Source: Acidobacteriota bacterium
GTDB taxonomy: Bacteria; Acidobacteriota; Thermoanaerobaculia; Gp7-AA8
DNA length: 64,000 nucleotides
Direction: 5' to 3'
Assembly (NCBI GenBank): GCA_021325515.1
Contig: JAJPHC010000058.1
Coordinates: 1-64,000 of the forward strand
Shown here in pieces: positions 12,254 through 32,178 of this stretch. Under the pieces are notes generated by a model that had not been told where the DNA came from, did no database searches, and was given only the letters and a program-made list of their open reading frames with translations. Position 1 is the first letter of the stretch. The number at the start of each line of letters is the position of its first letter. The position numbers and the translations under genes are program-made.

Positions 12254-12326
12254 AAATGACGGAACAGCGAATGCCGAGTGCCCAAAACATTTTCAGTTTT
12301 CAATGTTCAATTTTCAATTTCGCAAG
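12240..12326. repeat. AT-rich foldback at the end of asnB
   Basis: GAAAATTGAAAATG-like words on the left (12240-12262) face CATTTTCAGTTTTCAATGTTCAATTTTCAATTT-type complements on the right (about 12289-12320). The left arm holds the asnB stop codon and the right arm ends 7 bp before the next start. It has the same layout as the other tandem-repeat foldbacks here, but with an AT-rich unit. Confidence 0.7.
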
Positions 12327-13406
12327 ATGAAACTTCTCCTCCTCGCAACCGACATCTACGGCGGCTACGGCGGCATCGCGCTCTACAACCGCGATTTCGT
12401 CGCGGCGCTCGCGAGCCATCCCGATTGCGAGGAAGTCGTCGTCGTGCCGCGCATCATCCCCAACGAGCCGGAGCACATCCCCTCCAACGTGCGCTTCGTG
12501 TCGGAGGCAGCGAAGAGCAACCTCGCCTACCTCCGGGCGATCAACGCGCTGCGGAAAGAACGCTTCGATCTCGTCTTCTGCGGTCATGTGAATCTGCTGC
12601 CGGTTGCGCGCACGCTGAGCAGCGACGCGGTGCTGCTCGTTTACGGCATCGAGGCGTGGAAGCCGTCGCGCAACCGGATTCGCAGCCGCCTCGCCACGCA
12701 GATCCGCTCCGTGATCTCGATCAGCGAGATCACGATGCGCCGGTTTCTCGCCTGGACCTCTTGCGACTGCCGGCAGTTCATCCTGCCGAATGCGATTCAC
12801 CAGGATCTCTATCGCATCGCGCCGCGCGATCCGGCGCTCGTCGCGCGCTATGGACTCGAAGACAAGCGCGTGCTCCTGACGGTCGGCCGCGTGGTCGCCG
12901 CCGAGCGCTACAAAGGCTTCGACGAAGTCATCGAGATCCTCGGCGATCTTCCGGAGGATGTCGTCTACGTCATCGCCGGCGGAGGCAATGATCTCCCCCG
13001 CCTGAAGCGCCGCGCGCGTGAGCTCGGCGTCGAGCACCGCGTGGTCTTCACCGGTCTTTTCCCCGAAGCGGAGAAGCCGGCGCTTTACAATCTCGCCGAC
13101 GTGTATGTGATGCCGAGCCGAGGGGAGGGATTCGGGTTCGTGCTGCTGGAGGCGATGGCGTGCGGCGTGCCGGTGATCGCCAGCCGCCACGACGGCGGCC
13201 GCGAGGCCGTGCGCGACGGCGAGCTCGGAATCCTCGTCGATCCCAACAATCTCGCTGCGATCCGGATGGCGATCATCGAGCAACTCGCGCGCGCCGAAAA
13301 GAAGATCCCCGAAGGCCTCGCATACTTCTCCTTTGAAAACTTCAAAGCGCGCACCCACGCCATCGTCGACGAGTGCAGACGCCTCGTCCGCACCTCGAGA
13401 CCATGA
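12327..13406 (+). CDS. GT4 family glycosyltransferase
   Basis: A 359-residue GT-B fold retaining glycosyltransferase. The N-terminal glycine-rich YGGYGGIALYNRDF region is the acceptor-side loop. The C-terminal half has TVGRVVAAERYKGFDEVIE (donor domain entry) and the E-x7-E type block SRGEGFGFVLLEAMACGVPVIAS near residues 258-283, both diagnostic for GT4. No membrane segment. The ATG at 12327 is preferred over an upstream in-frame ATG (12303) that lies inside the foldback. Its stop overlaps the gmd start by 4 nt (ATGA), so the two are coupled. The sugar it transfers cannot be read from sequence. Confidence 0.9.
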   Translation: MKLLLLATDIYGGYGGIALYNRDFVAALASHPDCEEVVVVPRIIPNEPEHIPSNVRFVSEAAKSNLAYLRAINALRKERFDLVFCGHVNLLPVARTLSSDAVLLVYGIEAWKPSRNRIRSRLATQIRSVISISEITMRRFLAWTSCDCRQFILPNAIHQDLYRIAPRDPALVARYGLEDKRVLLTVGRVVAAERYKGFDEVIEILGDLPEDVVYVIAGGGNDLPRLKRRARELGVEHRVVFTGLFPEAEKPALYNLADVYVMPSRGEGFGFVLLEAMACGVPVIASRHDGGREAVRDGELGILVDPNNLAAIRMAIIEQLARAEKKIPEGLAYFSFENFKARTHAIVDECRRLVRTSRP

Positions 13407-14341
13407 AGAAAGCGATCATCCTCGGCGTCAGCGGTCAGGACGGCGCGTACCTCTCGCGCCTGCTTCTGGAGAAGGGCTACGAGGTCCACGGCACGTCGCG
13501 GGATGCGGAGACGCAGCCGTTCCACAAGCTAGAGTCGCTCGGCATCCGCAACCGCGTCACGATGCACTCGGTCTCGATGCGCGACTTCCGCGAGCTGCTG
13601 CAGGTGCTCAGCAACGTAAGGCCGGACGAGATCTACAACCTTGCGGGGCAGAGCTCCGTTGCGTTGTCGTTCTCGCAACCGATCGAAACGATGGACTCGA
13701 TCGCGACGGGCGAGCTGCTCGTGCTCGAGGCGATTCGCTTTCTGAAGCTGCCGGCGAGGCTCTACAACTCGGGCTCGAGCGAATGCTTCGGCGAGCAGCC
13801 GGATGGCGTGGCGAGCGATGAGCGAACGCCGTTCGTGCCGCGCAGTCCGTACGCCACGGCGAAGGCGACGGCGCAGTGGACCACGACGAACTATCGCGAG
13901 GCCTACGGTCTCTTCGCCTGCACCGGCATCCTGTTCAATCACGAGTCGCCGCTGCGGTCGGAGCGGTTCGTGACGAAGAAGGTCGTGGTGGCCGCGGCGG
14001 AGATTGCCGCCGGACGCCGGACGAAACTGCAGCTCGGCAATCTGGAGATCTCGCGCGACTGGGGCTACGCGCCGGAGTATGTCGAAGCGATGTGGCGGAT
14101 GCTGCAGCGCGACGAGCCCGAGGATTTCGTGATCGCGACGGGAGAGAGCCACACGCTGCAGGAGTTCGTCGCGGCGGTATTCGCGAGGCATGGGCTCGAT
14201 TGGCGCGATCACGTGGAGACGTCGCCGGCGCTGCTGCGCCCATCCGACCTCCGCTACAGCCGCGGCAACCCCGCGAAGGCAAAGCAACTCCTGGGCTGGG
14301 AAGCAACGACCCACTTCCCCGACCTCATCACCAAACTCTAA
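13403..14341 (+). CDS. gmd: GDP-mannose 4,6-dehydratase
   Basis: Gmd turns GDP-D-mannose into GDP-4-keto-6-deoxymannose, the precursor of perosamine, rhamnose and fucose nucleotides. The 312-residue protein is a short-chain dehydrogenase-like fold. It has GVSGQDGAYL at the start, NSGSSECFG in the middle and the catalytic YxxxK at about Y150/K154. The block FNHESPLRSERFVTKKV is highly specific for Gmd, and LLGW occurs near the end. It is somewhat shorter than the usual 340-370 residues. It is coupled by an ATGA overlap to the GT4 upstream. A perosamine-type aminotransferase and an acetyltransferase lie at 18.0-19.8 kb on the other strand, which suggests the product. Confidence 0.88.
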   Translation: MKKAIILGVSGQDGAYLSRLLLEKGYEVHGTSRDAETQPFHKLESLGIRNRVTMHSVSMRDFRELLQVLSNVRPDEIYNLAGQSSVALSFSQPIETMDSIATGELLVLEAIRFLKLPARLYNSGSSECFGEQPDGVASDERTPFVPRSPYATAKATAQWTTTNYREAYGLFACTGILFNHESPLRSERFVTKKVVVAAAEIAAGRRTKLQLGNLEISRDWGYAPEYVEAMWRMLQRDEPEDFVIATGESHTLQEFVAAVFARHGLDWRDHVETSPALLRPSDLRYSRGNPAKAKQLLGWEATTHFPDLITKL

Positions 14342-14890: not shown

Positions 14891-16048
14891 CTAAAGACGA
14901 CACCCTTTCGCCGCTTCGGCCGCCACATACTTCCCGATCTCGAGTGACGCGGTCGCCGCGGGCGAAGGGGCGTTGCAGACGTGAATCGCGTTGCCACGCC
15001 TCTCGATCACGAAATCATCGGCGAGCGCGCCTGACGGCAGGAGTGCCTGCGCGCGCACGCCGGCGCGAGAGCGATGAAGATCGCGTTCCTGTATGCCGGG
15101 CACGAGCCGCTGCACGCTTTGCGCGAAGAGGTGGCGGCTAACGCTGCGCAGCACCTCGCGGCCTCCCTCCTCCCAGTTGCGGGCGGCGAGGCGCCAGAAC
15201 CCGCCGTAGGTGAACGTCTCGAAGGAATCGCGCAGGTTGATATCGCGCCAGCGGTAGCCTTCGCGCGCGAGTGCGAGCACGGCGTTGGGGCCGGCGTGCA
15301 CGTGGCCTTCGACGCCGCGCGTGAGGTGGACGCCGAGGAAGGGGAAGTCGGGATTGGGGACGGGGTAGATGAGGGTGCGGACGAGTGAGGCGCTCGCGCC
15401 GGTGACGTCGTAGTACTCGCCGCGGAAGGGGACGATGCGGATGTTGCGCGAGCGGGCGAGGCGGTCGGAGAAGAGGCCGGCGCAGTTGATGATGGTGCGT
15501 GCGCGGAAGTCGCCGTTCGTCGTGATGAGGCGATCGTTCTCGATGGCGAGGACGCGGCAGGAGAGCTCGAGCTGGCCGCGAATCGAGCGGGCCATCGCTT
15601 CGCTGACGAGGCGATAGTCGACGACGCCGGTGGAGGGAACGTGGAGAGCGGCGACGGCGGAGACATGCGGCTCGATCTCTTTCGCTTCTGCGGCATCGAG
15701 CCAGCGAGTGGCGACACCGTTGCCGCGCGCGTTCTCTTCGAGCTTCCGCAGCCGCGCAACTTCAGCGTCGCCGGTCGCGACGATGAGCTTCCCGCAGATG
15801 TCGAAAGGGATCGCATGCGCGCGGCAGAACTCGACCATGGAGCGATTCCCATCGACTGCCATGCGAGCCTTCAGCGTGCCAGGCTTGTAGTAGATCCCGG
15901 AGTGAATGACGGCGGAGTTGCGCCCAGTCTGATGCGCCGCGAACTGCGGCTCTTTCTCGAAGAGGATGACGGAGGAGGATTCGGGAAGCGCGAGCGCGGT
16001 CGCAAGACCGACGATGCCGCCCCCGATGATGGCGTAGTCGAAGATCAT
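14891..16048 (-). CDS. lhgO: L-2-hydroxyglutarate oxidase/dehydrogenase
   Basis: LhgO oxidises L-2-hydroxyglutarate to 2-oxoglutarate with FAD and feeds electrons to the quinone pool, a metabolite-repair or lysine/glutarate-breakdown step. The 385-residue protein opens with the FAD dinucleotide motif YAIIGGGIVGLATALAL (G9, G11, G14). It then has the family-typical EKEPQFAAHQTGRNSAVIHSG and YYKPGTLKARMAVDG blocks, STGVVDYRLV in the middle and PNPDFPFLGVHLTRG in the substrate region. It is an odd neighbour in a sugar locus. Its start adjoins the stop of the upstream epimerase gene with no gap, so the genes are probably co-transcribed. Confidence 0.9.
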   Translation of the reverse strand: MIFDYAIIGGGIVGLATALALPESSSVILFEKEPQFAAHQTGRNSAVIHSGIYYKPGTLKARMAVDGNRSMVEFCRAHAIPFDICGKLIVATGDAEVARLRKLEENARGNGVATRWLDAAEAKEIEPHVSAVAALHVPSTGVVDYRLVSEAMARSIRGQLELSCRVLAIENDRLITTNGDFRARTIINCAGLFSDRLARSRNIRIVPFRGEYYDVTGASASLVRTLIYPVPNPDFPFLGVHLTRGVEGHVHAGPNAVLALAREGYRWRDINLRDSFETFTYGGFWRLAARNWEEGGREVLRSVSRHLFAQSVQRLVPGIQERDLHRSRAGVRAQALLPSGALADDFVIERRGNAIHVCNAPSPAATASLEIGKYVAAEAAKGCRL

Positions 16049-17005
16049 TTAAATCCCGACACGCACATCACGCGACGCGACGTTCTTTAGCCATTCGACC
16101 GTGTCGCGAACTCCTCGCCGTAGATCGCCGCGAGCCGTGAAGCCTGCGGCGGCAAAGCGGTCCGCACTGACCGTATACGAAAGCTGATTCATGATCCGGG
16201 CATCGACGAGTTGTACATCGAGCCCCGAGACGTGGGCACGGATCGCGTCGACGATCTCTCGAACCGTCGCATTCAACGTCAGCACGTTGTAGACACGATT
16301 GTCAAAGAGGTCGCGCTCGATGATGAATGCGATGGCCCGCACCGCGTCTTCCAGATCAAGGTAAGGACGACGCTGATCGAGCGCGGATCGCCAAACCGTG
16401 ATCGGGAGTCCCTGACAGGCCTGCCAGATGAACTTGTTCACCGCGGTGTGAAACCGCATCCCGGGCGAAACACCGAAGATCGTGCCGAACCGGCAGGTGA
16501 TGAAACGAAGATTCTCCGACCTTCCGAGTTCTTCCAGCGCGCGTTCCGCATGCAGCTTCGAAGTTGCGTATGGGCTTTGCGGCTGCAATTCGCTCTCGGC
16601 ACACTCCTCGTCCACCACCTCACTCTGTGTTCCATACACGCTCGTGGTGGAAAGGAAAAGGAATGGTACGCCGGCGACGGCGCATTGCCGCGCGACTCGC
16701 AGGGTTCCCTCGAAATTGACCTGTTCGACCTGCTCCGCTTTGTCGAAACTGGAGGCTGCATCGGTTATGGCGGCGAGGTGCACAAGCCCGTTTGCTCCTT
16801 CGAGAACAGGCGCAAGGTCGAACGACTGAATGTCTTCCTGGAGAAAGCGATACCTGGCGGCATCCGGCAGACGAAACAGGGACGTGTATCGCTGGGTTGA
16901 GAGATCGTCGACCATGACGATTTCGCAACCCGGAAACGCGACCGGAAGCTCACGGATCAGCCGCGAACCGATGTGTCCCAACGCACCTGTGACGACGATC
17001 TTCAT
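16049..17005 (-). CDS. NAD-dependent epimerase/dehydratase
   Basis: A 318-residue extended short-chain dehydrogenase/reductase. The nucleotide-binding motif is VVTGALGHIGSRLI (G7, G10, G13). The catalytic tyrosine and lysine are Y146 and K150 in SPYATSK, and serine/threonine in FLSTTSVYG lies before it. The fold fits UDP-hexose 4-epimerases or dTDP/UDP-sugar dehydratases; the exact sugar is not readable. The ATG at 17003-17005 shares one base with the stop of the upstream epimerase (TGATG), so the pair is coupled. A longer in-frame extension upstream lies inside that gene and is not used. Confidence 0.88.
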   Translation of the reverse strand: MKIVVTGALGHIGSRLIRELPVAFPGCEIVMVDDLSTQRYTSLFRLPDAARYRFLQEDIQSFDLAPVLEGANGLVHLAAITDAASSFDKAEQVEQVNFEGTLRVARQCAVAGVPFLFLSTTSVYGTQSEVVDEECAESELQPQSPYATSKLHAERALEELGRSENLRFITCRFGTIFGVSPGMRFHTAVNKFIWQACQGLPITVWRSALDQRRPYLDLEDAVRAIAFIIERDLFDNRVYNVLTLNATVREIVDAIRAHVSGLDVQLVDARIMNQLSYTVSADRFAAAGFTARGDLRRGVRDTVEWLKNVASRDVRVGI

Positions 17006-17991
17006 CAGTCGAGATATTCGCGCAGATTCGGGCGGAAATAGTCGCGAGTGATCTCGAGACCTTTCCGGAGATCCACCTTCGCGCTCCATCCGAGGCGCGT
17101 CCTGATCTTCTCGTTGGAGATCACGGCATCGCCAATCTCAATCGCTTCCCGATCCTTCGGCCACTCAATGAACTGCAGCTTTCCGCCGATGACATCGACA
17201 ATTGCCGTGGCGATTTCGGTGACGCTGCATTGCCTGTCGCCTACCGCGAAGAAGGTCTGCCCACTCGCCTCGTCCGCCATCGCTGCACAGATAAGCGCCT
17301 CAACGACGTCGTCGACGAATGTAATCGTCCTGAGCTGCTTTCCCTCTCCGAAAACGGTGATCGTCTTGTTCTGCAGTCCGAGCCCGACGAAGTAGTTCAT
17401 GAATCCAAAGTCAGGGCTTTTGATATTCGAGCGTGGACCGAATACGTTTGCCAGCCGCACGGATGTGGTTTTTAACTTGTACGCACTTCCGTAGACCAGC
17501 ACATATTTTTCGGACGCCGACTTATTCGCAGAGTAGATGTCGACTGGAAACTCCGGATGCTGTTCCGTCACCGGATTGAAGACCATCCTGCCGATTTGAG
17601 TACTGGTTCCTACATGAACGACCTTGCAGTCACGATTGAAACGCCTCACCGCTTCGAGAACGTTGATTACACCCTTGCAGTTCACGTCGATATCGACGAG
17701 CGGATCCTTCATCGATTGCGGATGCGAGGTATAGGCCGCGCAGTTGAAAACAACATCCTTGCCCCGGATCACCGCGCTGACACCGTCAAATGCTCGGATG
17801 TCATTGAGCACGACTTCGACATCCTTCTCGATGTCGCGAATGTTGTGCATGTTCCCTCCCGATCGCGGATCGAGAACATCGTAAATGGTCACGACCGCCC
17901 CGAGTTGAAGGCACTGATGCGCGAGATTGCTCCCGATGAAGCCCAACCCGCCGGTGATCAGAACATGTTTACCGCGAAGCTCACTTTGCAT
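17005..17991 (-). CDS. NAD-dependent epimerase/dehydratase (second)
   Basis: A 328-residue short-chain dehydrogenase/reductase with LITGGLGFIGSNLA at residues 11-24 (the GxxGxxG dinucleotide motif) and the catalytic pair Y153/K157 in DIYSANKSASEKY. The HVGTSTQIG stretch supplies the active-site Ser/Thr. It resembles UDP-glucose 4-epimerase-like and GDP-6-deoxy-hexose enzymes of O-antigen loci. The start is an ATG (17989-17991); a GTG at 18000 is also in frame. It follows the DegT aminotransferase gene by about 10 bp and overlaps the next epimerase by one base. The substrate is not known. Confidence 0.88.
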   Translation of the reverse strand: MQSELRGKHVLITGGLGFIGSNLAHQCLQLGAVVTIYDVLDPRSGGNMHNIRDIEKDVEVVLNDIRAFDGVSAVIRGKDVVFNCAAYTSHPQSMKDPLVDIDVNCKGVINVLEAVRRFNRDCKVVHVGTSTQIGRMVFNPVTEQHPEFPVDIYSANKSASEKYVLVYGSAYKLKTTSVRLANVFGPRSNIKSPDFGFMNYFVGLGLQNKTITVFGEGKQLRTITFVDDVVEALICAAMADEASGQTFFAVGDRQCSVTEIATAIVDVIGGKLQFIEWPKDREAIEIGDAVISNEKIRTRLGWSAKVDLRKGLEITRDYFRPNLREYLD

Positions 17992-18001
17992 CGCATGCAC
18001 T

Positions 18002-19144
18002 CTATCGAACGCCGGCCGCAGCAGACTTCACACTGAGAATGGTCTTGATTCCATCGCAGATCGCATCCGTCTGCTCACGGGTCAGATTCATCGCACACGG
18101 CAGATTGATCCCGCGATCCGAGATGTCATAGGCATTCGGGTTCATTCTCCGTCCCTCCTCTTCTCGTCCCGGATATGCGGGTAACGACGAAAGCGGATAG
18201 AAAAATGGGCGCGACGGAAGACCGAGCGCCTGCAACTTTTCCATCGCCGATGCCTTTGTCATCTCGTGACTCTTCCCGAAAACGACCGCCGTGATCCAGA
18301 CGCTATTGAAACCATTTTCGGGCTCCGCATTGAGCTGAAGATCCTCAACGCCAGCGAGACCCTCTCTGTACCACTCATAGATCTCACGCTTCCGCGCGAT
18401 CAATTCATCAAGCCGCTTGAACTGCGCGTAACCAAGAGCCGCCTGCAGATTGAACGGCATGTACTTGTAGGTCACTTCCTCGTTGAAATACATCTTGCCG
18501 CCCGGCCTGCGGCCATGGTCGCGGAGAATCGTGCATCGCTCGAAGAGATGGTCATCGTCGAGAATGAGCATCCCTCCTTCGCCCGTCGTCAACGTCTTCG
18601 TCCGGTGAAAACTGAAGGTGGATCCGATACCGAAGGTACCCGCCTTGCGCCCTTTGTACGTAGAACCGAGCGACTCGGCAGCGTCCTCGATGAGTGGAAT
18701 GCCATGCCGCTCCGAGATCGCTACGAGCTCGTCCATGTACGGCATGTTGCCGAACAGATCGACGACGATGATCGCTTTCGTCTTCGATGTGATTCGCCTC
18801 TCGACCGACTCCGGGTCGAGACACCAGTGCTTCGGATCGATGTCGCAAAAGACCGGGGTCGCGCGTTGATAGTTGATTGGTGCAGCGGAAGCAATCCACG
18901 TGCATTCCGGCACGATGACCTCATCTCCCTCACCAACTCCGAGAGCAGTCAGGAGCAGATGGATGGCCGTCGTGCAGTTCGGAGTCATCAGCGCATATTT
19001 GCGGCCATGCCAGGCGGCGAACTCCTTCTGAAAGGTCTCGACGTAGTAGTAAGGCTTCTCGTACCACCCCGTACGCATCGCGTCGAGAACCGTCTCGATC
19101 TCTTTTTCCGTGATCCACGGTCCAGCCATGTAGATGGGATCCAT
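18002..19144 (-). CDS. DegT/DnrJ/EryC1 aminotransferase, GDP-perosamine synthase-like
   Basis: A 380-residue PLP-dependent sugar aminotransferase. The PLP lysine is K183 in FSFHRTKTLTTGEGGM, a context close to the TTGEGGM block of GDP-perosamine synthases. EDAAESLGSTYKGRKAGTFG precedes it. The later YKYMPFNLQAALGYAQFKRLDELIARKREIYEWY matches the perosamine-type core in layout. With gmd in the same locus, a role in making GDP-perosamine from GDP-4-keto-6-deoxymannose is likely but inferred. The ATG at 19144 follows TTGAGGAGCGCG, a good ribosome site, and is preferred over a TTG at 19156. The adjacent upstream gene is the matching acetyltransferase. Confidence 0.88.
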   Translation of the reverse strand: MDPIYMAGPWITEKEIETVLDAMRTGWYEKPYYYVETFQKEFAAWHGRKYALMTPNCTTAIHLLLTALGVGEGDEVIVPECTWIASAAPINYQRATPVFCDIDPKHWCLDPESVERRITSKTKAIIVVDLFGNMPYMDELVAISERHGIPLIEDAAESLGSTYKGRKAGTFGIGSTFSFHRTKTLTTGEGGMLILDDDHLFERCTILRDHGRRPGGKMYFNEEVTYKYMPFNLQAALGYAQFKRLDELIARKREIYEWYREGLAGVEDLQLNAEPENGFNSVWITAVVFGKSHEMTKASAMEKLQALGLPSRPFFYPLSSLPAYPGREEEGRRMNPNAYDISDRGINLPCAMNLTREQTDAICDGIKTILSVKSAAAGVR

Positions 19145-19152
19145 CGCGCTCC

Positions 19153-19791
19153 TCAAGTCGATCGTATTGCCTTCGCGGGCACACCAACAACCACCGTTGA
19201 CGGAGGGACATCACGAGTCACCACTGCTCCCGCGCCGACGATCGCGTCCGCTCCGATCCGCAGCCGCGGAAGCACGGTCGCACCAGCCGCGATCCACGCT
19301 CCCCTGCCGACGTGTACCAGTCCCGTCAGCGTGGCGCCTGGGCCGATCTCGGCACCATCCTCGAGCACACACTCGTGATCGACGCTCGCTTTCGTATTCA
19401 CGATACATTGTCTTCCCAGCACAGCATGAACCTCGACGATCGCACCGGCGTGAATTTGTGCCCCATCCCCGATCTGCGCGCTCCTCGCAATGATCGCCGA
19501 GCGATGGATTGCGCTGATGGGGGCGAGCCCCTGAGACTCGAGCCGCTCGGCGATCCGAAGGCGCACGTTCCCATGCGGGTTACCGATCGTCACGCAGAAT
19601 CCGGCAGCTACGCCTCGCTGTGCCTGATACCAGGAATCAAATTCACTCCCGTGGTAGAGCGGCACGTCCCGGAATGGGGGGGTGAGGTTCTTCGTATCAT
19701 CGAAGACCGCGATGAGCTCATCACCCTGCTCCTCGATGACCGGCCGCATCACCTTCGCCTGACCTGTGCCGCCCCAAAAAATCAACTTCAT
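19153..19791 (-). CDS. NeuD/PglD/PerB-type sugar N-acetyltransferase
   Basis: A 212-residue acetyltransferase with an N-terminal Rossmann-like PglD_N domain (KLIFWGGTGQAKVMRPVIEE) and a C-terminal left-handed beta-helix of hexapeptide repeats (IGDGAQIHAGAIVE through IGADAIVGAGAVV). The catalytic histidine is H139 in NTKASVDHECVL, as in PglD. Enzymes of this type acetylate the 4-amino group of nucleotide-bound amino sugars. PerB does so on GDP-perosamine. Its position directly before the perosamine-synthase-like gene supports that reading. It overlaps the upstream aminotransferase gene by 4 nt (ATGA). Confidence 0.9.
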   Translation of the reverse strand: MKLIFWGGTGQAKVMRPVIEEQGDELIAVFDDTKNLTPPFRDVPLYHGSEFDSWYQAQRGVAAGFCVTIGNPHGNVRLRIAERLESQGLAPISAIHRSAIIARSAQIGDGAQIHAGAIVEVHAVLGRQCIVNTKASVDHECVLEDGAEIGPGATLTGLVHVGRGAWIAAGATVLPRLRIGADAIVGAGAVVTRDVPPSTVVVGVPAKAIRST

Positions 19792-20858
19792 GACGAAAAC
19801 GACAGGACCGTGTCGATGACGATCTGCTGGTCGCTCTCCGTCAGTTCCGGATACATCGGCAACGAAAGAACCGTCGCTGCTGCGTTTTCGGTGACCGGCA
19901 GCGAACCGTTCGTGGCAAATGCGGGCTGTTGATGCACGGCGACGGGGTAATGAACCAGTGCGCCGACGTCGTGCGCCTTCAGATGCGCCTGCAGTGCGTC
20001 GCGCCGTTCCGAGGTAATCACGTAGAGGTGGTAGACATGTTCCACTCCGCTACGCACGTCCGGAGTCCTGACTACTCCTGCCAGGGCCTGGTCGTAACGC
20101 GCGGCGATCGCGCGACGGCGCGCGTTGTCGGCATCGAGATAGCGCAACTTCACGCGAAGGATCGCTGCCTGCAGCTCGTCCAGACGGCTGTTCCATCCGT
20201 CGGTGCTGCTGACGTAGCGCTGCGCCCATCCGTACTCACGAAAGAGGCGTAGCCTGCGTGCCAGCTCGTCGTCATTCGTGACGACAGCGCCGCCGTCTCC
20301 GATCGCGCCGAGGTTCTTCGTCGGATAAAAACTGAATGCACCGGCGATCCCGCGTGAACCTGCGCGCCGCCCGCGATCGCGGGCACCATGTGCCTGAGCA
20401 CAATCCTCGAGGACCGGAAACCCGAAGCTCATGATCGGCTCGAGATCCGCCGGCTGCCCGTAGATATGGACCGGCACGATCGCTTTCGTTCTTGGTGTAA
20501 TCGCCTGTTGGATGAGACTTGGATCGATCGTCCAGGTTCGCGGCTCGATATCGACGAAAACCGGCGTCGCGCCACACAGCCGGATCGCGGACGCCGTCGC
20601 CACAGCCGTGTGTGCGGTGGTAATCACTTCATCACCGGCTCCGACACCCAGCGCCGCAAGCGCAACGTGCAGCGCCTCGGTACCCGATCCCACGCCGACT
20701 GCGTGCTTCACTTCGCAATAGGTGGCGAACTCACGCTCGAAGGCCTCTACCTCGGGCCCAAGAATGTAACGGCCATTGGCCAGAACATTCGCAATCGCTG
20801 CGTCGATCTCTTCGCGATGCGCGTTGTATTGCTCGCGCGGATTCGAGCAGAGAATCAC
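19788..20858 (-). CDS. DegT/DnrJ/EryC1 aminotransferase (FdtB/QdtB-like)
   Basis: A 356-residue PLP sugar aminotransferase, distinct from its neighbour at 18.0-19.1 kb. The PLP lysine is K181 in FSFYPTKNLGAIGDGGAV, a context typical of 3-amino sugar makers (FdtB, QdtB, DesV types). GVGSGTEALHVALAALG (residues 55-71) and EDCAQAHGA are also standard. The start is a GTG (20856-20858) that overlaps the methyltransferase stop by 4 nt (GTGA), so translation is coupled. An in-frame TTG-type extension upstream is rejected because it lies inside the methyltransferase gene. The sugar nucleotide is not known. Confidence 0.88.
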   Translation of the reverse strand: MILCSNPREQYNAHREEIDAAIANVLANGRYILGPEVEAFEREFATYCEVKHAVGVGSGTEALHVALAALGVGAGDEVITTAHTAVATASAIRLCGATPVFVDIEPRTWTIDPSLIQQAITPRTKAIVPVHIYGQPADLEPIMSFGFPVLEDCAQAHGARDRGRRAGSRGIAGAFSFYPTKNLGAIGDGGAVVTNDDELARRLRLFREYGWAQRYVSSTDGWNSRLDELQAAILRVKLRYLDADNARRRAIAARYDQALAGVVRTPDVRSGVEHVYHLYVITSERRDALQAHLKAHDVGALVHYPVAVHQQPAFATNGSLPVTENAAATVLSLPMYPELTESDQQIVIDTVLSFSS

Positions 20859-22075
20859 GAAACGACCTCGACGCGGGGCACATAGACGATCCACCGTCCG
20901 CCGGCTTCGCGGAACGCGGTTTCCTTGCTCATGATCTCGTCGCGGTGATTCCAGCCGAAGAGAAGCGCGTAGTCGGGATAATTCCTCGCAAACTCATCAT
21001 GCGATCGCACGGGGATGTGCACCCCCGGACTGAATTTCCCCTGCTTGATCGGCGTCGTGTCGCTGATGAACTCCACGAGTTGCGGCGTGATGCCGCAATA
21101 GTTGGTCACGGTCGTGCTCTTCGATGTGGCAGCGTAACCGGCAACGCGCCGCCCCTCATCACGGCACGATTGCAGAAGCGTGCGCAGATCGTCGCGCGAG
21201 CGTTCCACATTCGCCCGCAAACGGTCATAGCACTCCGGCGTCTCGAGTCCGAGCTGCGCTTCGCGACGCGCGACCTCATGCACCGAGTCGCCAGCCGGAT
21301 AGGCGCCCTGATGCGCGACGACATACCTCATCGAGCCGCCATGGACGTGTTGCGGAATCGCTTCGATGATCTCCATCCCATGCATCGCAAACAGATTGCG
21401 CAGCGAGCTGACGGAGAAGTAGAACGCGTGCTCGTCGTAGATCTGATCGTAGGAAGTCTTCTCGACGATATCGCCGAGAAACGGATCTTCGAAGATCAGA
21501 ACACCTGCCGGTTTCAGCAACAGCCGGATCCCTTCGATCACCGAGTGCATGTAAGGGATGTGGCACATCACATTCGCGCCGAGGAATGCGTCGGCCTGTC
21601 CGTTTTCGTCGCGGATGCGGCGCGCAAGATCCTCATCGAAGAATTCCGTGATGGTCCGGACGCCACGCTCACGCGCCACCTCCGCAACATTCGACGACGG
21701 TTCGATGCCGAGATGACGGATGCCACGCTCTGCGAAGTGACGAAGCATGATCCCGTCATTGCTTCCGATCTCGCAGATGAACGGATCATCCGATGCGAGA
21801 TAGCGATCGCGAACGAAGGATGCGAAGCCGGCGAAATGCCGCTGCATCCATGCGGATGTCGACGAGAAAAATGCGTAGTTCTCGTGAAACATCCGGCTGC
21901 GATCGACGAGCTCGGTCAACTGCACCATCGAACACTTCGGACAGTGCGCGACCCGTAGGTTGAAAAAGTATTCGTCTTTGAATTGTTCAGGAGACAGGAA
22001 CCCGTTCGCGATGGGCATCGGCCCGAAATCCAAAAACGGCTCGATGGGCGTTTCGCAGATGAGACATGAAGGCAT
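20855..22075 (-). CDS. Sugar C-methyltransferase (TylC3/NovU family)
   Basis: A 406-residue SAM-dependent enzyme with three parts: an N-terminal zinc-binding module with four cysteines (CLICE near residue 4 and CPKC near residue 50), a central Rossmann methyltransferase domain (FICEIGSNDGIMLRHFAERG) and a C-terminal Methyltransf_14-like domain (RVAGYAATSKSTTVTNYCGI). This layout is that of NDP-4-keto-deoxysugar C-3 methyltransferases, so a branched-chain sugar is expected in the polymer. The C-terminus ends in a GTGA overlap with the aminotransferase gene. The ATG at 22075 is chosen because the family zinc module starts there. Confidence 0.9.
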   Translation of the reverse strand: MPSCLICETPIEPFLDFGPMPIANGFLSPEQFKDEYFFNLRVAHCPKCSMVQLTELVDRSRMFHENYAFFSSTSAWMQRHFAGFASFVRDRYLASDDPFICEIGSNDGIMLRHFAERGIRHLGIEPSSNVAEVARERGVRTITEFFDEDLARRIRDENGQADAFLGANVMCHIPYMHSVIEGIRLLLKPAGVLIFEDPFLGDIVEKTSYDQIYDEHAFYFSVSSLRNLFAMHGMEIIEAIPQHVHGGSMRYVVAHQGAYPAGDSVHEVARREAQLGLETPECYDRLRANVERSRDDLRTLLQSCRDEGRRVAGYAATSKSTTVTNYCGITPQLVEFISDTTPIKQGKFSPGVHIPVRSHDEFARNYPDYALLFGWNHRDEIMSKETAFREAGGRWIVYVPRVEVVS

Positions 22076-22104
22076 CCTCACGATTCTAACCGCGCTTGCG
22101 GCGT

Positions 22105-22300
22105 TCACGTGTGATCCGGTGCATCGATGCCGAGGTTCCGGCAGATCTTACGCACCAACTCGTCCTTGATCTCGCTGTGCCGCGGCACGGATGAACGTTT
22201 CCCAAGCGACTGGTTGATGTACCACGAATGACGTCCGCCTTCCCGCATGAGGACACAGCCATGTTGATTCAACCAGCCGCTCGAATGTCCTCCGCTTCAT
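22105..22300 (-). pseudogene. hicA: HicA-type toxin gene with a one-base frameshift
   Basis: HicA toxins are small double-stranded-RNA-binding-fold mRNA interferases. Reading from the ATG at 22300 gives MKRRTFERLV. After one extra base the reading would continue as NQHGCVLMREGG, with RHSWYINQ, KRSSVPRH, EIKDELVRKICRNLGI and a stop at 22105. The span is 196 nt, one more than 65 codons. The likely extra base is the G after GTT in GGTTGAATCAACATGG (read on minus), about 33 nt from the start. The start overlaps the hicB stop by 4 nt (ATGA). A shortened product from an internal TTG is conceivable but would lack the first helix. A sequencing or assembly error is the main alternative. Confidence 0.8.
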
Positions 22301-22550: not shown

Positions 22551-23483
22551 TCAGGATGACCGGGGCTTGAAACCAAGGGACCGCTTCACGCGCGAGAGAA
22601 CCTTCCAGATCGGAGTCCGTCCCGGAATCAACTCCCGGCGCGGGAAGTCGTCGCGCAGGATCACGGCCGGAAAGAGAGCGGCTGCACGATAGAGCTCGAT
22701 CGTGCGCCGGAGCCACTGCACGTCCGAGAGGTAGTGTGCGTGAGTGAGATGGATACCGAGTTCGGCCTTGCGTCGCAACTCGGCTGAGGGCGATTCGCGC
22801 GCGATCCACGATCGAACGGCCGTTTCCCAATGATGCGAGATGCGTGCACCGATTCGATCGCGCTGCTCGTCGTGATAGCGATAGCGGCCGAGAAGAACGT
22901 CGAGCTTGCGCGTGGAAAAGTGCGTGGCGATGCGAAGGTAGTGATCTGCATCGGGAGCATACGGAATGTCGGGGTTCCATCCTCCTACGCGATCGAGGGC
23001 TGCTTTCGTGAAAAACGCGGAGGGCTGCGGGATGAAGGAAAACTTCGCGAGGTAATCAGCGAGGGCGAATGGCGGGAGGCTCGTGCGCCCGATCAGCCGC
23101 GATTCCGCATCGATGTATTCGACATCGCCGTAGACCAGGCCGAGAGAAGGATCCGACGCGAATGCTGCTACGACGGCTCGAATGGCCCCCGGCAGGTACG
23201 TATCGTCAGAGCTTTGGATTGCCTGAATGGCTCCGCTGGCGAGATTCAGACCTTTGTTGACCGCATCGACGACGCCACGATCCGGCTCCGACCACCAGCG
23301 AAGCTCCGGGCGTTCGCCATAGCTGCGGAGCACTTCGACCGTTTCATCGTTCGACGCACCGTCGAGCACGAGCACTTCGATGGGGCGATAATCCTGCGCG
23401 AGCACCGAATCGATCGTCTCGCGAATGAAGCGTCCCTGGTTGTAGCTGGGGATGACGACGGAGACGAGCGGCTGCGTCATCAT
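22551..23483 (-). CDS. GT2 family glycosyltransferase
   Basis: A 310-residue inverting GT-A fold enzyme. The N-terminal block is SVVIPSYNQGRFIRETIDSVLAQ. It is followed by EVLVLDGASNDETVEVL, then the metal-binding region IQSSDDTYLPGA (where DxD is usual). LVYGDVEYID and RVGGWNPDIPYAPDADHYLRIA (acceptor-side ED-like motif) occur later. The C-terminal ~70 residues are basic with no membrane segment. It shares a base or two with the preceding gene (TGATG at 23481-23485), so the two are coupled. Either of two adjacent ATGs can be the start. The transferred sugar is unknown. Confidence 0.9.
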   Translation of the reverse strand: MMTQPLVSVVIPSYNQGRFIRETIDSVLAQDYRPIEVLVLDGASNDETVEVLRSYGERPELRWWSEPDRGVVDAVNKGLNLASGAIQAIQSSDDTYLPGAIRAVVAAFASDPSLGLVYGDVEYIDAESRLIGRTSLPPFALADYLAKFSFIPQPSAFFTKAALDRVGGWNPDIPYAPDADHYLRIATHFSTRKLDVLLGRYRYHDEQRDRIGARISHHWETAVRSWIARESPSAELRRKAELGIHLTHAHYLSDVQWLRRTIELYRAAALFPAVILRDDFPRRELIPGRTPIWKVLSRVKRSLGFKPRSS

Positions 23484-24613
23484 CAGCCGATCAGCCGCAC
23501 GGCCTCGAGCCACGCCCGCATGTGCGCCGCGGTATCGCGCAAAAAGGCGTCGCCCCCCTGATCCCAGATGAAGCCTTTGTAGTGGCTGCTGCGCGCCTCG
23601 AGCTCATCGGCCAGGTGCGCATACAACTCAGGGTACGAGCTGCCCTGCAGTTTCGCCTCGGTGAGCCACGGCAGAAGGTCGTCGAGGAGCACGACGCCGG
23701 CGAGCTCGTGATAGAGATCCTTGAAAAGGTTGTGCGGCGTGCGGCGGTGATCGGCTACGGGTGAACCGATCCGGATCGTTTCGCCGCGCGCCTTCACGCA
23801 GGCCTGGCAGAGATAGCCGCTGAGAATGTCGCCATAGCGATCGATGGAAAGTCCGCCAACGTCGAACCCCATGCGCACGTAGTAGTACGCGGCGATCGCC
23901 TCGCGGGAGATGGCGGTATTCTGCGTGTTGATGGGCGACCACGTGTTGCGCCCGAGGAAGTGAGATGTTGATTCGGCGCCGGAAACGCGAGGCGCGATCG
24001 CGATCCGGGTGAGCGCATCGACATCGGGGTCCGTGAGCCACAGGCCTGCATTCATCGCCACCCGCGCCGTGCGGTGCGCGGCCGCGAATGTTCGTGACTT
24101 CTGGCGCGCAAAATACGGGAACCCGCGCGGATAAATTTCGGCTTGCACGGACGTTGAGAGAAGACTGCCAATATTGAACCAGCGGTCGCTGCTCTCGGAT
24201 TCGTTTGCGTCGACTTCATCTCCGACAACCGAATGCTCTCGTACGAAGTCGGAGTTGGCGAGGCAGAAATTGTCGTCATCAATCGAAATCATCACATCGA
24301 CGCCGCGATCCAGAGCCATCAGGAAGCCGACGTTGCGACGGTTGTCGGTGTTGTACGGAATGCGGTCCCTCATCGAGGGAAACTTCGAAAGGAATCCTTC
24401 CTGCTCCTCAAGAGTGGGGCAGGCGATACGAAATCCGCGACGCTTCGCGTCGTCGCAAGCCGTCAGCACACTCTCAGGGGTCTTGCGGTCGATAATGACG
24501 ATGAGCCCGACATGGTCACGGTGGCCATGCCGGTCGAGATTATCGAGATATCCTTCGAGGAACCTGGGCTCGAAGATAGTAGTAACAACGATTTCAACGG
24601 TCTTCTCGTTCAC
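23483..24613 (-). CDS. Reversibly-glycosylated-polypeptide-like protein (GT75-like)
   Basis: A 376-residue soluble protein that resembles plant RGP/UDP-arabinopyranose mutase proteins. Marks: VEIVVTTIFEPRFLEGYL at the start, the metal-binding DDD at residues 112-114 (MISIDDDNF), RGFPYFARQ around residues 163-171 where RGPs have RGYPFSLRE with their glycosylated arginine, and NAGLWLTDPDVDA at 189-200 where RGPs have GLWLNIPDYDA. If the likeness is functional it would interconvert UDP-arabinopyranose and UDP-arabinofuranose, or act as a related glycosyltransferase. The GTG start (24611-24613) follows GGTGAG. It diverges from the GT4 gene at 24670. Confidence 0.65.
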   Translation of the reverse strand: MNEKTVEIVVTTIFEPRFLEGYLDNLDRHGHRDHVGLIVIIDRKTPESVLTACDDAKRRGFRIACPTLEEQEGFLSKFPSMRDRIPYNTDNRRNVGFLMALDRGVDVMISIDDDNFCLANSDFVREHSVVGDEVDANESESSDRWFNIGSLLSTSVQAEIYPRGFPYFARQKSRTFAAAHRTARVAMNAGLWLTDPDVDALTRIAIAPRVSGAESTSHFLGRNTWSPINTQNTAISREAIAAYYYVRMGFDVGGLSIDRYGDILSGYLCQACVKARGETIRIGSPVADHRRTPHNLFKDLYHELAGVVLLDDLLPWLTEAKLQGSSYPELYAHLADELEARSSHYKGFIWDQGGDAFLRDTAAHMRAWLEAVRLIG

Positions 24614-24669
24614 ATTCTCACCAGATGGAATTGTAGTTGAGGAAACGAAGCGAATCGGGGGCAACGAGC

Positions 24670-25758
24670 TTGACGAAGGTTCTGGCAGTTCTTGAGGCAG
24701 GCGATCGGTGGCCAAGCGGGGTCGTCCGGGGAACGATCTATCGCGACTTCTTCAAGCGCGACGGAATCGAAGTCGAATTCGTTGCACGGCAGCCTCTCGC
24801 CGCAATGGATTTCGTTGCAAGCCCACCACGCATCCTTCGCCCAATCGTGTGGAGGCAGAGAATACGACGCCGGATCCTGTCGCGCGCGGAAGTTCACAGT
24901 GAAGCCAGCATCCTGAAGAAGGCCGCTTCGGCAGATGTCGTCTATCTCTCGAAAGTTCTTTCACTGTCTCTCTATGAACGCCTCAAGGAATCGACTACTG
25001 CCCGCATAGTGCTCGATTTCGGAGATTCAGTCTGGCTCTATAACGACGGAGCGAATGAGCACTCCTTTCAGCAAGTACTCCGCATCGTCGATGCTGTAAC
25101 AACGGATAACGCCCGAACAGCCGAATACGTGCGACAGTTCAATTCCGATTGCACCGTGATACCGGATTCTCCTCAACTCGAGGAATTCGATCGCCGACGT
25201 TCGTCAAGAACGCGCTCAATGCGTAGAGACGTTGTGCTGGGATGGTTGGGCACGCCAAGTACTCTGTTCAATCTGTACGAAATCTGGGAGGCACTGGAGA
25301 TCATCGGGCAGCGGCACCCAGACGCGACCATAAGACTCGTCGGAGCAGGGCATGACCCAAACTTGAGGCCTGCATTCGAGAGGATCCGATACTCAATCGT
25401 CGAGAGCTATGATCAGAATCGTATGATCGACGAGGTTCTGGATATGGACATCGGACTATTCCCGTTGCAAAACGTGGAGAGAAGCCGGGTTCGCGGAGTC
25501 CTGAAAGCGGCTATCTACATGTGTGGTGAGGCGGCCGTCGTCGCATCGCCGGTCGGCCAGGTGGTGGATGTAATCCGAAATGGAGAGAACGGTTTGCTGG
25601 CCGGATCCCGCGACGAATGGGTCCGCCAACTTGAGCGCGTGATCCTCGATCGCGAACTACGGTTGCGCCTGACCGCTGAGGGCCTGACATACGTCCGCCA
25701 GCATTTTCGAACAGAGGAAAGTTGGCTCCTTCTAAAGTCAGTCCTTCTCGGCCGGTAA
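24670..25758 (+). CDS. GT4-like glycosyltransferase
   Basis: A 362-residue GT-B fold protein. The N-terminal half (LAVLEAGDRWPSGVVRGTIYRDFF, VVYLSKVLSLSLYERLK, RIVLDFGDSVWLYN) is the acceptor domain. The C-terminal half has VLGWLGTPSTLFNLYEIWEALE, IRLVGAGHDPNLRP and the donor-side stretch GVLKAAIYMCGEAAVVASPVGQVVDVIRNGENGLLAG, which fits GT4. The start is uncertain: a TTG at 24670 is chosen; another TTG at 24637 would overlap the divergent start region. It is the first of three plus-strand GT4 genes (24.7-28.4 kb). Base composition is less GC-rich from here on. Confidence 0.82.
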   Translation: MTKVLAVLEAGDRWPSGVVRGTIYRDFFKRDGIEVEFVARQPLAAMDFVASPPRILRPIVWRQRIRRRILSRAEVHSEASILKKAASADVVYLSKVLSLSLYERLKESTTARIVLDFGDSVWLYNDGANEHSFQQVLRIVDAVTTDNARTAEYVRQFNSDCTVIPDSPQLEEFDRRRSSRTRSMRRDVVLGWLGTPSTLFNLYEIWEALEIIGQRHPDATIRLVGAGHDPNLRPAFERIRYSIVESYDQNRMIDEVLDMDIGLFPLQNVERSRVRGVLKAAIYMCGEAAVVASPVGQVVDVIRNGENGLLAGSRDEWVRQLERVILDRELRLRLTAEGLTYVRQHFRTEESWLLLKSVLLGR

Positions 25759-29113: not shown

Positions 29114-30095
29114 CGGCTTTCCGCGCTCGCACCGAGATTCTGCATCCCAGCCTGGACCACGCAAGAATTCTCGAAATCCATGAGCCAGCGTGCGTCTTCG
29201 CTAGCCGTCCAACAACCCGATCGGTGATGTTCCGGCATTCCATCAGTCGCCACCACGACTCCCGAGCGTAGTCCTGAATGGCATCATGGCGCGCCTCCGC
29301 ACACCACTGAAAATCTGACGTAAGCCCGCGAAGATCCCGGTTATCAAAATAGACCATGTGTCGCGGAAAGTCGTAGCCAGCCCACCACTTTCCCCACAGT
29401 CTTCCGTCGAGACTATCCCGTGTAATCGTGCTGAACAAAAACTCACCGCCGGGCTTCAGGATACGCGTGACTTCTTTGACAATCTCAAACGGATTATAGA
29501 GGTGCTCCAGTACAAAGCTGGCGATCACGACGTCGTAGGTTGAGTCTGGGATTGAGACAATCATGGACTCGACAGAACCCGTTCGAACGTCGAATCCGCT
29601 GCGTCTTGCGAGCGAGGCTGCAGAGTCGACCAATTCAATCCCGTGCAAATCAGACCATCCCAAGGCACGTAGCCCACGGAGCCTGCTGCCCGTCGCCGCT
29701 CCGATTTCGAGTACTGCGCCATCTGGCCTGAACGCTGGAATCAAATCAACAGTTACCTTCCATCGTTGCCACCACTTCGGCATTCGCCGGACCGGAACCG
29801 GAAATTGGGTGTATCCGAGTTCGTTCGAAAGAACTTGGCCGACACGCCCATCGATCGGAGGAGCGATCTCGTCCATGTCGGACGAATGCGGAATATAGCT
29901 CGATGGGTATGCTAGCGAGAGGGTCTCCGGCGTTGGACGCGGATTTTGAAATGTCAATGCACAGACCAGGCACCTCGACGCCGTGAAAACACCTGGCACT
30001 CCATATAAATAGTCTCGCGCTTGAAATTGGGGTTCACTTTCGTTTGATCCACAGCGTGGACAGGAGACCGTTTCCAACGCGATTTCGTTGCTCAT
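29091..30095 (-). CDS. SAM-dependent methyltransferase with N-terminal zinc ribbon
   Basis: A 334-residue protein. Residues ~10-55 form a zinc-ribbon-like module with CPRCGS and CLVC pairs. The central class I methyltransferase core starts at AVLEIGAATGSRLRGLRALG (near residue 128). The motif region VVIASFVLEHLYNPFEIVKEVTRILKPGGEFLFST is typical of Methyltransf_11/12/23 proteins. A hydrophobic/basic C-terminus follows (RVVGRLAKTHAGSWISRILAWSR). It overlaps the Wzt stop by 4 nt (ATGA), so it belongs to the wzm-wzt operon. In ABC-exported O-antigens a methyltransferase can cap the chain and set its length; such a role is a guess. Confidence 0.86.
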   Translation of the reverse strand: MSNEIALETVSCPRCGSNESEPQFQARDYLYGVPGVFTASRCLVCALTFQNPRPTPETLSLAYPSSYIPHSSDMDEIAPPIDGRVGQVLSNELGYTQFPVPVRRMPKWWQRWKVTVDLIPAFRPDGAVLEIGAATGSRLRGLRALGWSDLHGIELVDSAASLARRSGFDVRTGSVESMIVSIPDSTYDVVIASFVLEHLYNPFEIVKEVTRILKPGGEFLFSTITRDSLDGRLWGKWWAGYDFPRHMVYFDNRDLRGLTSDFQWCAEARHDAIQDYARESWWRLMECRNITDRVVGRLAKTHAGSWISRILAWSRLGCRISVRARKADVQRISA

Positions 30096-31342
30096 GATGG
30101 AACTGTCACGATCCAATCCAGATGCGGCGCCAGTCGTGCAGGCGTTTCGTATCCCGGGTAGGAACTGTTTACAATGCCCGTCTGCTCCACATCAAAGGTC
30201 AACCGAACACCCTCACCTACACACGAACGCACATTTGCGACTCCGGCGAGCACGCGTAACTGGTATGGTCTCGGGGCCAAGAAATTCGCAGGGATCGTCG
30301 CCGTCGCCTCGTGTAATCCAGCCGAAAGCACCAGCATTTCCCCCGTATCACCGTTATGGATCGACTCGATAATTACGGTGTCTTCGAGATCCAGTAGTTG
30401 AAAGTAGACGTGCAGGCCCATCGTTGGGCTGAGCACTTCGAAGTCAATCCTTATCTGCAGAGGTTCACCATTGCTGATTGTCGCCACATCATTCCCCATC
30501 TGCAGCAAACGCACTGACAAAAGCCTGAAACTCGGGTCAGGTTTCAAACCGGCGATCTGTCGCGCGAGATCATCTCGTCCGGCAGGGCTCGTCACCCGTT
30601 GAAGATATCTCGTCACAACTGCGGCACTCGTGCCTTCGTCAACAACCCTACCTCCGCTTAACACGACGGCCCTTTCACACAAAGCTCGCACGGCCGGCAT
30701 GTTGTGACTCACGAAGAGCACCGTGCGTCCGTGAGCGGCAACTTCTCCCATCTTCCGAAGGCATTTCGCCTGAAATGCTGCGTCGCCGACAGCAAGAACT
30801 TCGTCGACGATCAGGATCTCGGGCTCGAGGTGCGCCGCGACAGCGAATGCCAGACGCATGTACATTCCGCTCGAGTAGTACTTCACGGGAGTGTCGATGA
30901 ACCGGTCGACTTCAGCGAAGGCGACGATCGCATCGAAGCGCTGCCGGATTTCAGCACGTGTCATTCCCAGAATGGCACCGTTGAGCTGAATGTTCTCGCG
31001 GCCACTCAACTCGCCGTGAAATCCGGTTCCTACCTCAAGCAGACTGGAGACCCGTCCGCTGACTACGACCCGTCCTTTTGTCGGCTCAGTAATTCTGCTC
31101 AGAATTTTCAGTAGCGTCGATTTGCCGGCACCATTCTGACCAATGATTCCTACTGCCTCGCCGTGACGCACCTGAAAGGAAACATCGTTGAGTGCCCAGA
31201 GGTCGCGCTCGCCGTCTTCCGAGGCGCGCCGCCGCAACCGGACGAGATCGGTGACCGTTTCACGTAATGATCTGGAATCGATCTTCGCACCAATTCGATA
31301 CAGCTTCGAAACGCTCTCAACATGGACGGCGATATCAGTCAT
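30092..31342 (-). CDS. wzt: Polysaccharide ABC exporter ATPase with C-terminal carbohydrate-binding domain (Wzt)
   Basis: Wzt powers export of finished O-antigen or similar glycans across the inner membrane. The ABC domain has Walker A IIGQNGAGKST (residues 66-76), the signature KYYSSGMYMRLAFAVAAHL, Walker B EILIVDEVLAVGD and VLFVSHNMPAVRALC as H-loop. The last ~160 residues form a beta-rich domain (FRLLSVRLLQ to FDVEQTGIVNSSYPG) as in Wzt proteins that bind the modified chain end. The ATG at 31340-31342 follows the Wzm stop by 2 nt; a TTG at 31348 would overlap it. A coupled methyltransferase gene follows. Confidence 0.93.
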   Translation of the reverse strand: MTDIAVHVESVSKLYRIGAKIDSRSLRETVTDLVRLRRRASEDGERDLWALNDVSFQVRHGEAVGIIGQNGAGKSTLLKILSRITEPTKGRVVVSGRVSSLLEVGTGFHGELSGRENIQLNGAILGMTRAEIRQRFDAIVAFAEVDRFIDTPVKYYSSGMYMRLAFAVAAHLEPEILIVDEVLAVGDAAFQAKCLRKMGEVAAHGRTVLFVSHNMPAVRALCERAVVLSGGRVVDEGTSAAVVTRYLQRVTSPAGRDDLARQIAGLKPDPSFRLLSVRLLQMGNDVATISNGEPLQIRIDFEVLSPTMGLHVYFQLLDLEDTVIIESIHNGDTGEMLVLSAGLHEATATIPANFLAPRPYQLRVLAGVANVRSCVGEGVRLTFDVEQTGIVNSSYPGYETPARLAPHLDWIVTVPS

Positions 31343-31344
31343 TG

Positions 31345-32178
31345 TCAAATCACATCGGCAAACATTCGCTCGAGCCGGCGGAAGTAGATGCTTCCGGACA
31401 CGATCGCAACGATAGCAAGACCAGCGGCCGCCGCCACCTCGGTGACATCGACTGCGCGGCCGCTCAAACCACCGCGAAAGGTCTCAACCAGAGAAGCCAT
31501 CGGATTTAACTTCACCCATGGAAGCCACTTTGCCGGAACCATGCTCAATGGGTACACGATCGGGGTGGCAAACATCCAGATTTGAATGACGAAAGGAATC
31601 ACGTGCCGCAGGTCGCGAAAACGGACGACCAGCGCGCTCAGCCAGATTGAGAGTCCCAGTGCCGTGAGGAACACCAGTAGCGTGCTCAAAGGAATCGCGA
31701 TGACAGCGTTTACCGAGGGACGGAAGTGACTATTCAGGCTCAGCGGGACAAACATGAGAAGTGCGAAGGCGAAGTCGATCAGACTCGTGGAGACCGCGGC
31801 AATCGGCACCAACAGCCGGGGAAAATACACTTTTGTAATGAGGTTCGAACTTGCAATCATACTGTTGCTGCCACTCGTAATTGCGTTCGAAAAGAGTGTC
31901 CAGGGTAGGAGGCCCGCATATGCAAACAAGGGATATGGCATCCCATCGGATGGCAGCTTGGCTATGCGGCCGAAAAAAAAGGCAAAGATCAGCATCGCGA
32001 AGAGTGGCTGAATGACGGCCCATGTAACTCCAAGCAACGTCTGTTTGTAGCGGACTTTCACGTCCCGCCAAACGAGAAAATACAGCAACTCGCGGTAGTT
32101 CCACAGCTCACGCAAATCCACTGAACGCCACATCGACGAAGGTTCGATAACCAATAACGGCTGCTGATCTCTTCTCAC
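31345..32178 (-). CDS. wzm: Polysaccharide ABC exporter permease (Wzm)
   Basis: A 277-residue membrane protein of the ABC-2 type with six hydrophobic segments. The N-terminal LRELWNYRELLYFLVWRDVKVRYKQTLLGVTWAVIQPLF is the family's amphipathic helix and first segment, and VRFRDLRHVIPFVIQIWMFATPIVYPLSMVP is equally typical. It pairs with the Wzt gene directly downstream (stop and start 2 nt apart). The start is a GTG (32176-32178). It is the first gene of a minus-strand operon that diverges from the acetyltransferase gene at 32273, so a promoter should lie within 32179-32272. Confidence 0.94.
   Translation of the reverse strand: MRRDQQPLLVIEPSSMWRSVDLRELWNYRELLYFLVWRDVKVRYKQTLLGVTWAVIQPLFAMLIFAFFFGRIAKLPSDGMPYPLFAYAGLLPWTLFSNAITSGSNSMIASSNLITKVYFPRLLVPIAAVSTSLIDFAFALLMFVPLSLNSHFRPSVNAVIAIPLSTLLVFLTALGLSIWLSALVVRFRDLRHVIPFVIQIWMFATPIVYPLSMVPAKWLPWVKLNPMASLVETFRGGLSGRAVDVTEVAAAAGLAIVAIVSGSIYFRRLERMFADVI

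Follow-up and report, generated by a model that had tools for sequence, protein, structure and literature searches.

A GT75 protein of the MtdL type, probably a GDP-L-fucopyranose mutase, in a surface-polysaccharide locus of an Acidobacteriota bacterium

Introduction

By 2023, only two bacterial members of the GT75 family had been characterized, MtdL from Marinactinospora thermotolerans (A201A pathway; PDB entries 7xpr, 7xps, 7xpt, 7xpu, and 7yua) and Hyg20 from Streptomyces hygroscopicus (hygromycin A pathway; GDP-L-fucofuranose forming), and both belong to antibiotic pathways (PMC9937993). Both enzymes act on GDP-L-fucose and GDP-L-galactose, converting the sugar in either direction between pyranose and furanose; they work without FAD and use Mn2+ or Mg2+ (PMC9937993). 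The FAD-dependent UDP-galactopyranose mutase Glf carries out the same type of reaction, from pyranose to furanose, but is an unrelated flavoenzyme.

In MtdL, Arg257 binds phosphate and sugar, Asp260 is the proposed general base, and His287 coordinates Mn; an arginine-sugar adduct is the proposed intermediate of GT75 mutases (PMC9937993). Base choice has been tied to Thr13, Asn42, and Ser86, and GDP binding was lost upon the S86D substitution. Activity was lost upon D87S, Asp87 being required in MtdL and replaced by Ser in active plant reversibly glycosylated proteins (RGPs) (PMC9937993). Here, we describe a GT75 gene found in a 64,000-nucleotide stretch of DNA from an Acidobacteriota soil bacterium (termed the window).

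Results

A first-pass annotation had pointed to the gene at 23483-24613 as a relative of plant RGPs. The coordinates were right; the strand, which had not been stated, is minus: an open reading frame encoding 376 aa runs from a GTG codon at 24613 to a TGA stop at 23485-23483, with no internal stops. The GTG start is supported by the L012/L018 homologue (63% identical), which begins at the same site in the alignment. With the protein as the query, this was the sole such gene in the genome.

RGP was the only Pfam match of the protein (PF03214; E = 7.2e-11, 42.3 bits for a cutoff of 23.8, residues 2 to 327), so that the proposed homology to the RGP/GT75 family holds; an NCBIfam profile search gave no match. 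The only strong matches in the PDB were the MtdL entries (phmmer E = 1.6e-87, residues 6 to 375, ∼42% identity over the full length), and the probable orthologue of Hyg20, encoded in locus L043, is 41% identical. An AlphaFold model that drew on 28 natural relatives has a mean pLDDT of 94.7 and contains the GT-A-like N-terminal region, the GT75 core, and the C-terminal helices, and this predicted fold matches MtdL with a TM score of 0.94 to 0.95 and an rmsd of 1.5 Å, versus TM scores of ∼0.4 for other GT-A enzymes. Judged by sequence and predicted fold, the protein is a member of the RGP/GT75 family, with a match to RGP and MtdL far above chance, and its close kin among characterized enzymes are MtdL and Hyg20, not the plant UDP-arabinopyranose mutases.

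Scanning a single genome for each species, we obtained 52 bacterial and archaeal GT75 loci, which span Thermoanaerobaculia (63%), other Acidobacteriota, Pseudomonadota, Actinomycetota, cyanobacteria, candidate phyla, and one archaeon. In a tree of nonplant sequences, the proteins of the window and of L018 group with those of L019, L020, and L021 (97/83) and then with that of L022 (96/89); the window protein is nested among MtdL-type sequences, near the actinobacterial MtdL/Hyg20 group. The gene is rare and patchy in the phylum, since only 7/396 sampled genomes have an RGP match over the cutoff; 2 of the 6 genomes sampled from the window's own family carry a GT75 gene.

MtdL-type GT75 genes were also seen on phage-like contigs (L070 to L092, IMG/VR viral contigs). 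One group (L075 to L086) has contigs of mostly 50 to 56 kb and a second has contigs of mostly 63 to 66 kb, of which L089 and L092 carry a gene that resembles GDP-mannose 3,5-epimerase; on L072 (∼125 kb), a Gmd-like gene adjoins GT75. Phage-type genes lie near some of the viral GT75 genes (RecT-like in L070, RNA ligase in L083, and DNA methyltransferase in L088), which suggests that phages may make GDP-furanoses. A GT75-like protein, 29% identical and annotated as hypothetical, is encoded at positions 77083 to 77829 of Synechococcus phage S-T4 (NC_048049.1), and proteins of this type are also found in phages Sf-CH5 and Sf-CH8. Haloarchaeal relatives (H1 to H7 and H12, from Halobaculum and Salarchaeum plasmids; ∼25% identical) carry the annotation "alpha-1 4-glucan-protein synthase," a dated term that probably misleads.

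We then considered the neighborhood of the gene in the window. A GT2 glycosyltransferase gene (22551-23483, minus strand; Pfam Glycos_transf_2, 1.4e-23) has its ATG at 23483, overlapping the GT75 stop codon by one base (TGATG at 23485-23481). Its homologue in L022 (61% identical) starts ∼10 bases after GT75, that in L018 lies within 2 kb of GT75, and homologues of at least 39% identity occur only in L018, L019, L021, L022, and L027, which are the window's close relatives. This translationally coupled GT2 is our best candidate for a fucofuranosyltransferase. A GT4-like glycosyltransferase gene (24637-25758, plus strand; Pfam Glyco_trans_1_4, 4.1e-07) is divergent from GT75, another GT4 gene (12303-13406, plus strand) is syntenic with one located beside Gmd in L018, and an ABC-2 polysaccharide exporter is encoded at 30092-32178 on the minus strand (Wzm-like, 31345-32178; Wzt-like, 30092-31348). 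The window and L018 have in common ETF-QO (81% identity), GT4 (59%), Gmd (71%), GT75 (63%), GT2 (58%), and the Wzt-like ATPase (44%), the last encoded beside GT75 in L018. The earlier reading of a surface-glycan locus that points to a furanose residue is supported.

Between these genes lies a minus-strand operon (16049-22108) encoding two SDRs, two aminotransferases of the DegT type, an acetyltransferase of the NeuD type, and a sugar 3-C-methyltransferase that closely resembles TcaB9 (best PDB match, 4.6e-134). It is similar to the branched-aminosugar pathways of antibiotics, is located here inside a surface-glycan locus, and serves another, probably dTDP-linked, sugar. The aminosugar operon ends with an unexpected neighbor, a gene for L-2-hydroxyglutarate oxidase (14891-16048, minus strand; 503 bits, over the cutoff).

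Genes for the supply of GDP-L-fucose are present in this genome. Contig C30 carries Gmd (571 bits, over the cutoff) and Fcl (314 bits) ∼100 bases apart, and the Fcl, which is located there and not on the window contig, has GDP-fucose synthases as its best PDB structures and keeps the catalytic residues C109, Y136, K140, and H179, with Thr in place of S107. A second GDP-mannose 4,6-dehydratase (Gmd) copy is found in the window (13373-14341, plus strand), 9 kb from GT75; its counterpart in L018 is only 2.9 kb from GT75. It scores 327 bits with TIGR01472, below the cutoff of 415, but it keeps the catalytic S/E/Y/K residues and matches PDB structures of Gmd at 7e-93 versus 2e-30 for the reductase Rmd. 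An assignment as Rmd was rejected on the scores (∼250 to 314 bits for Gmd structures versus 109 for Rmd).

To place these genes in the context of the family, we looked for Gmd, Fcl, GDP-mannose 3,5-epimerase (GME), Rml, Ugd, Glf, and ManC within 10 kb of GT75, counting probe matches with an identity of ≥40% and a coverage of ≥60%. Gmd or Fcl was found in 18 and GME in 10 of the 52 genome loci, several of which end early at contig ends, and these counts overstate the number of independent events because many streptomycete loci are near copies. Each of the two pairings nonetheless recurs in several separate branches, and they coincide in one locus only, that of MtdL itself (L045). RmlA/B was near GT75 in 2/52 loci, and Ugd, Glf, and ManC were in none. 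The gene adjoining MtdL is a clear GME (PDB 2c59, 7.7e-103), which fits the L-galactofuranose product of MtdL, as this product needs GME. Within the window's clade, L018 has Gmd, L019 has Fcl, and L020 has both. A strong Fcl was present in 5/5 MtdL-type carriers of the phylum sample versus 140/396 genomes overall, a co-occurrence that is suggestive only and statistically weak since the three carriers outside the window's family belong to one genus.

As MtdL accepts both L-fucose and L-galactose in vitro (PMC9937993) and sequence alone cannot separate them, the choice between the two sugars rests on the precursor enzymes in the genome. The GDP-L-fucose pathway is complete by gene content, with Gmd present twice and Fcl once, and no convincing GME was found in the assembly (99.8% complete, so that a gene could be missed); GDP-L-fucofuranose is therefore the best-supported product. 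We propose, with a probability of roughly three in four, that the GT75 protein is a metal-dependent, FAD-free mutase that converts GDP-L-fucopyranose into GDP-L-fucofuranose for a surface polysaccharide.

It is unlikely that the same enzyme acts on another GDP-sugar, either GDP-L-galactose, the substrate of MtdL in A201A synthesis, or a GDP-6-deoxyhexose derived from the local Gmd product (e.g., GDP-6-deoxytalose or a 4-amino sugar). Such a substrate would agree with the division of the family context between Gmd/Fcl and GME, with the presence of aminotransferases and SDRs near the window's own Gmd, and with the acceptance of both L-Gal and L-Fuc by MtdL and Hyg20 (PMC9937993). However, the best matches to the Marinactinospora GME in this genome are 32 to 33% identical, versus 45 to 63% for true GMEs near GT75, and we rejected a supply of GDP-L-galactose on this basis; as to the local Gmd product, the SDR/DegT/3-C-methyltransferase operon looks like dTDP-aminosugar pathways. 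It is quite improbable that the clade formed by L018 to L022 and the window gene has shifted to a GDP-6-deoxyhexose that is not a known GT75 substrate, supplied by its own divergent Gmd, which would place an undescribed furanose in the polysaccharide.

We then mapped the residues tested in PMC9937993 onto the protein and ∼80 relatives by sequence alignment. Asp109-111, Arg159, Asp195, Gln229, Arg257, Asp260, His287, Arg289, and His292 of MtdL are all kept, and Ser228 is replaced by Thr, as in many relatives. In the protein's own numbering, the MtdL active site aligns with the DDD metal/nucleotide motif at residues 112 to 114 (24272-24280), R163 (24125-24127), R259 and D262 (23828-23839), the Mn-coordinating H289 (23747-23749), R291, and H294, all encoded on the minus strand. 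The motifs DDD, RGFPYFARQ (163 to 171), and GLWLTDPDVDA (190 to 200) do occur in the order reported in the first pass, which had also placed a glycosylated arginine near residue 170. That arginine has a counterpart, but it is R163, equivalent to the catalytic Arg159 of MtdL and to the glycosylated Arg158 of OsUAM1; R170 is conserved as well. At the base and sugar positions (MtdL numbering), the protein has T13, D40, K42, T86, and D87. T86 is found in many relatives too, and K42 is no departure, because Lys is the most frequent state at this position, including in the S. hygroscopicus protein of L043; we thus rejected N42K as a mark of new nucleotide specificity.

These positions bear on the first-pass proposal that the protein makes UDP-L-arabinofuranose from UDP-arabinopyranose, as plant RGPs do. 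The two share the Pfam family, the DDD motif, the catalytic arginine, and the core fold, but at the plant UDP-type positions Pro13, Asp86, and Ser87 the protein has T, T, and D, which is a GDP-type base site (Thr13, Asp at 86 absent, and Asp87), and the losses caused by S86D and D87S in MtdL (PMC9937993) count against this proposal. Rice UAM2 (PDB 8cid; 16% identity) gave a TM score of only 0.66, versus 0.95 for MtdL, and the bacterial proteins that are more plant-like, those of L010 and L011, which have Pro13, stand apart on long branches. With the full-length match to MtdL and a gene context of GDP-L-fucose and GDP-L-galactose enzymes, we rejected the UDP-arabinose reading, which appears very improbable. 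Less credible still is a stand-alone autoglycosylating protein or glycosyltransferase devoid of mutase activity (a glycan primer or regulator), since, although GT75 enzymes glycosylate their own arginine and some plant members lack mutase activity, the inactive AtRGP5 has lost the equivalents of His287 and Arg257 (PMC9937993), both kept here, and the "new autoglycosylating transferase" of the first pass is not needed when the arginine adduct is the proposed intermediate of a known family (PMC9937993).

Discussion

The protein studied here resembles MtdL in sequence, predicted fold, and all catalytic residues, and differs from it by N42K, S86T, and S228T. The setting differs too: the host is a Gram-negative Acidobacteriota, and the gene lies in a surface-polysaccharide locus that has Gmd but no GME. 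Like the window protein, that of L043, the probable Hyg20 locus, has Lys at position 42, and Fcl is ∼2 kb away; in contrast, it has Ser at MtdL positions 86 and 228 and belongs to an antibiotic context.

By homology with MtdL, for which the steps have been proposed but not proven (PMC9937993), a mechanism can be drawn for the conversion of GDP-L-fucose. Gmd, from the window copy and/or the C30 copy, and the C30 Fcl would supply GDP-L-Fuc, the diphosphate of which would be bound by Mn2+ held by Asp114 and His289. R163 would attack the anomeric carbon C1 and displace GDP, with D262 as the general base; the arginine-linked pyranose ring would open, and O4 would close on C1, leading to the release of GDP-L-Fucf. 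The furanose would then be added to the surface polysaccharide, plausibly by the cotranslated GT2. In the open-access literature, we found nothing clearly relevant on L-fucofuranose in bacterial polysaccharides, which says little given that scope.

The GT75 family was already known in bacteria, and what is new is the setting of an MtdL-type enzyme in a surface-polysaccharide locus. Gene context may serve as a rule for predicting the substrate, Fcl or Gmd nearby suggesting L-Fucf and GME nearby suggesting L-Galf. The surface-polysaccharide setting, together with relatives in Acidobacteriota, cyanobacteria, proteobacteria, and archaea and on phage contigs, indicates that the supply of GDP-L-furanoses is wider than the two antibiotic cases.
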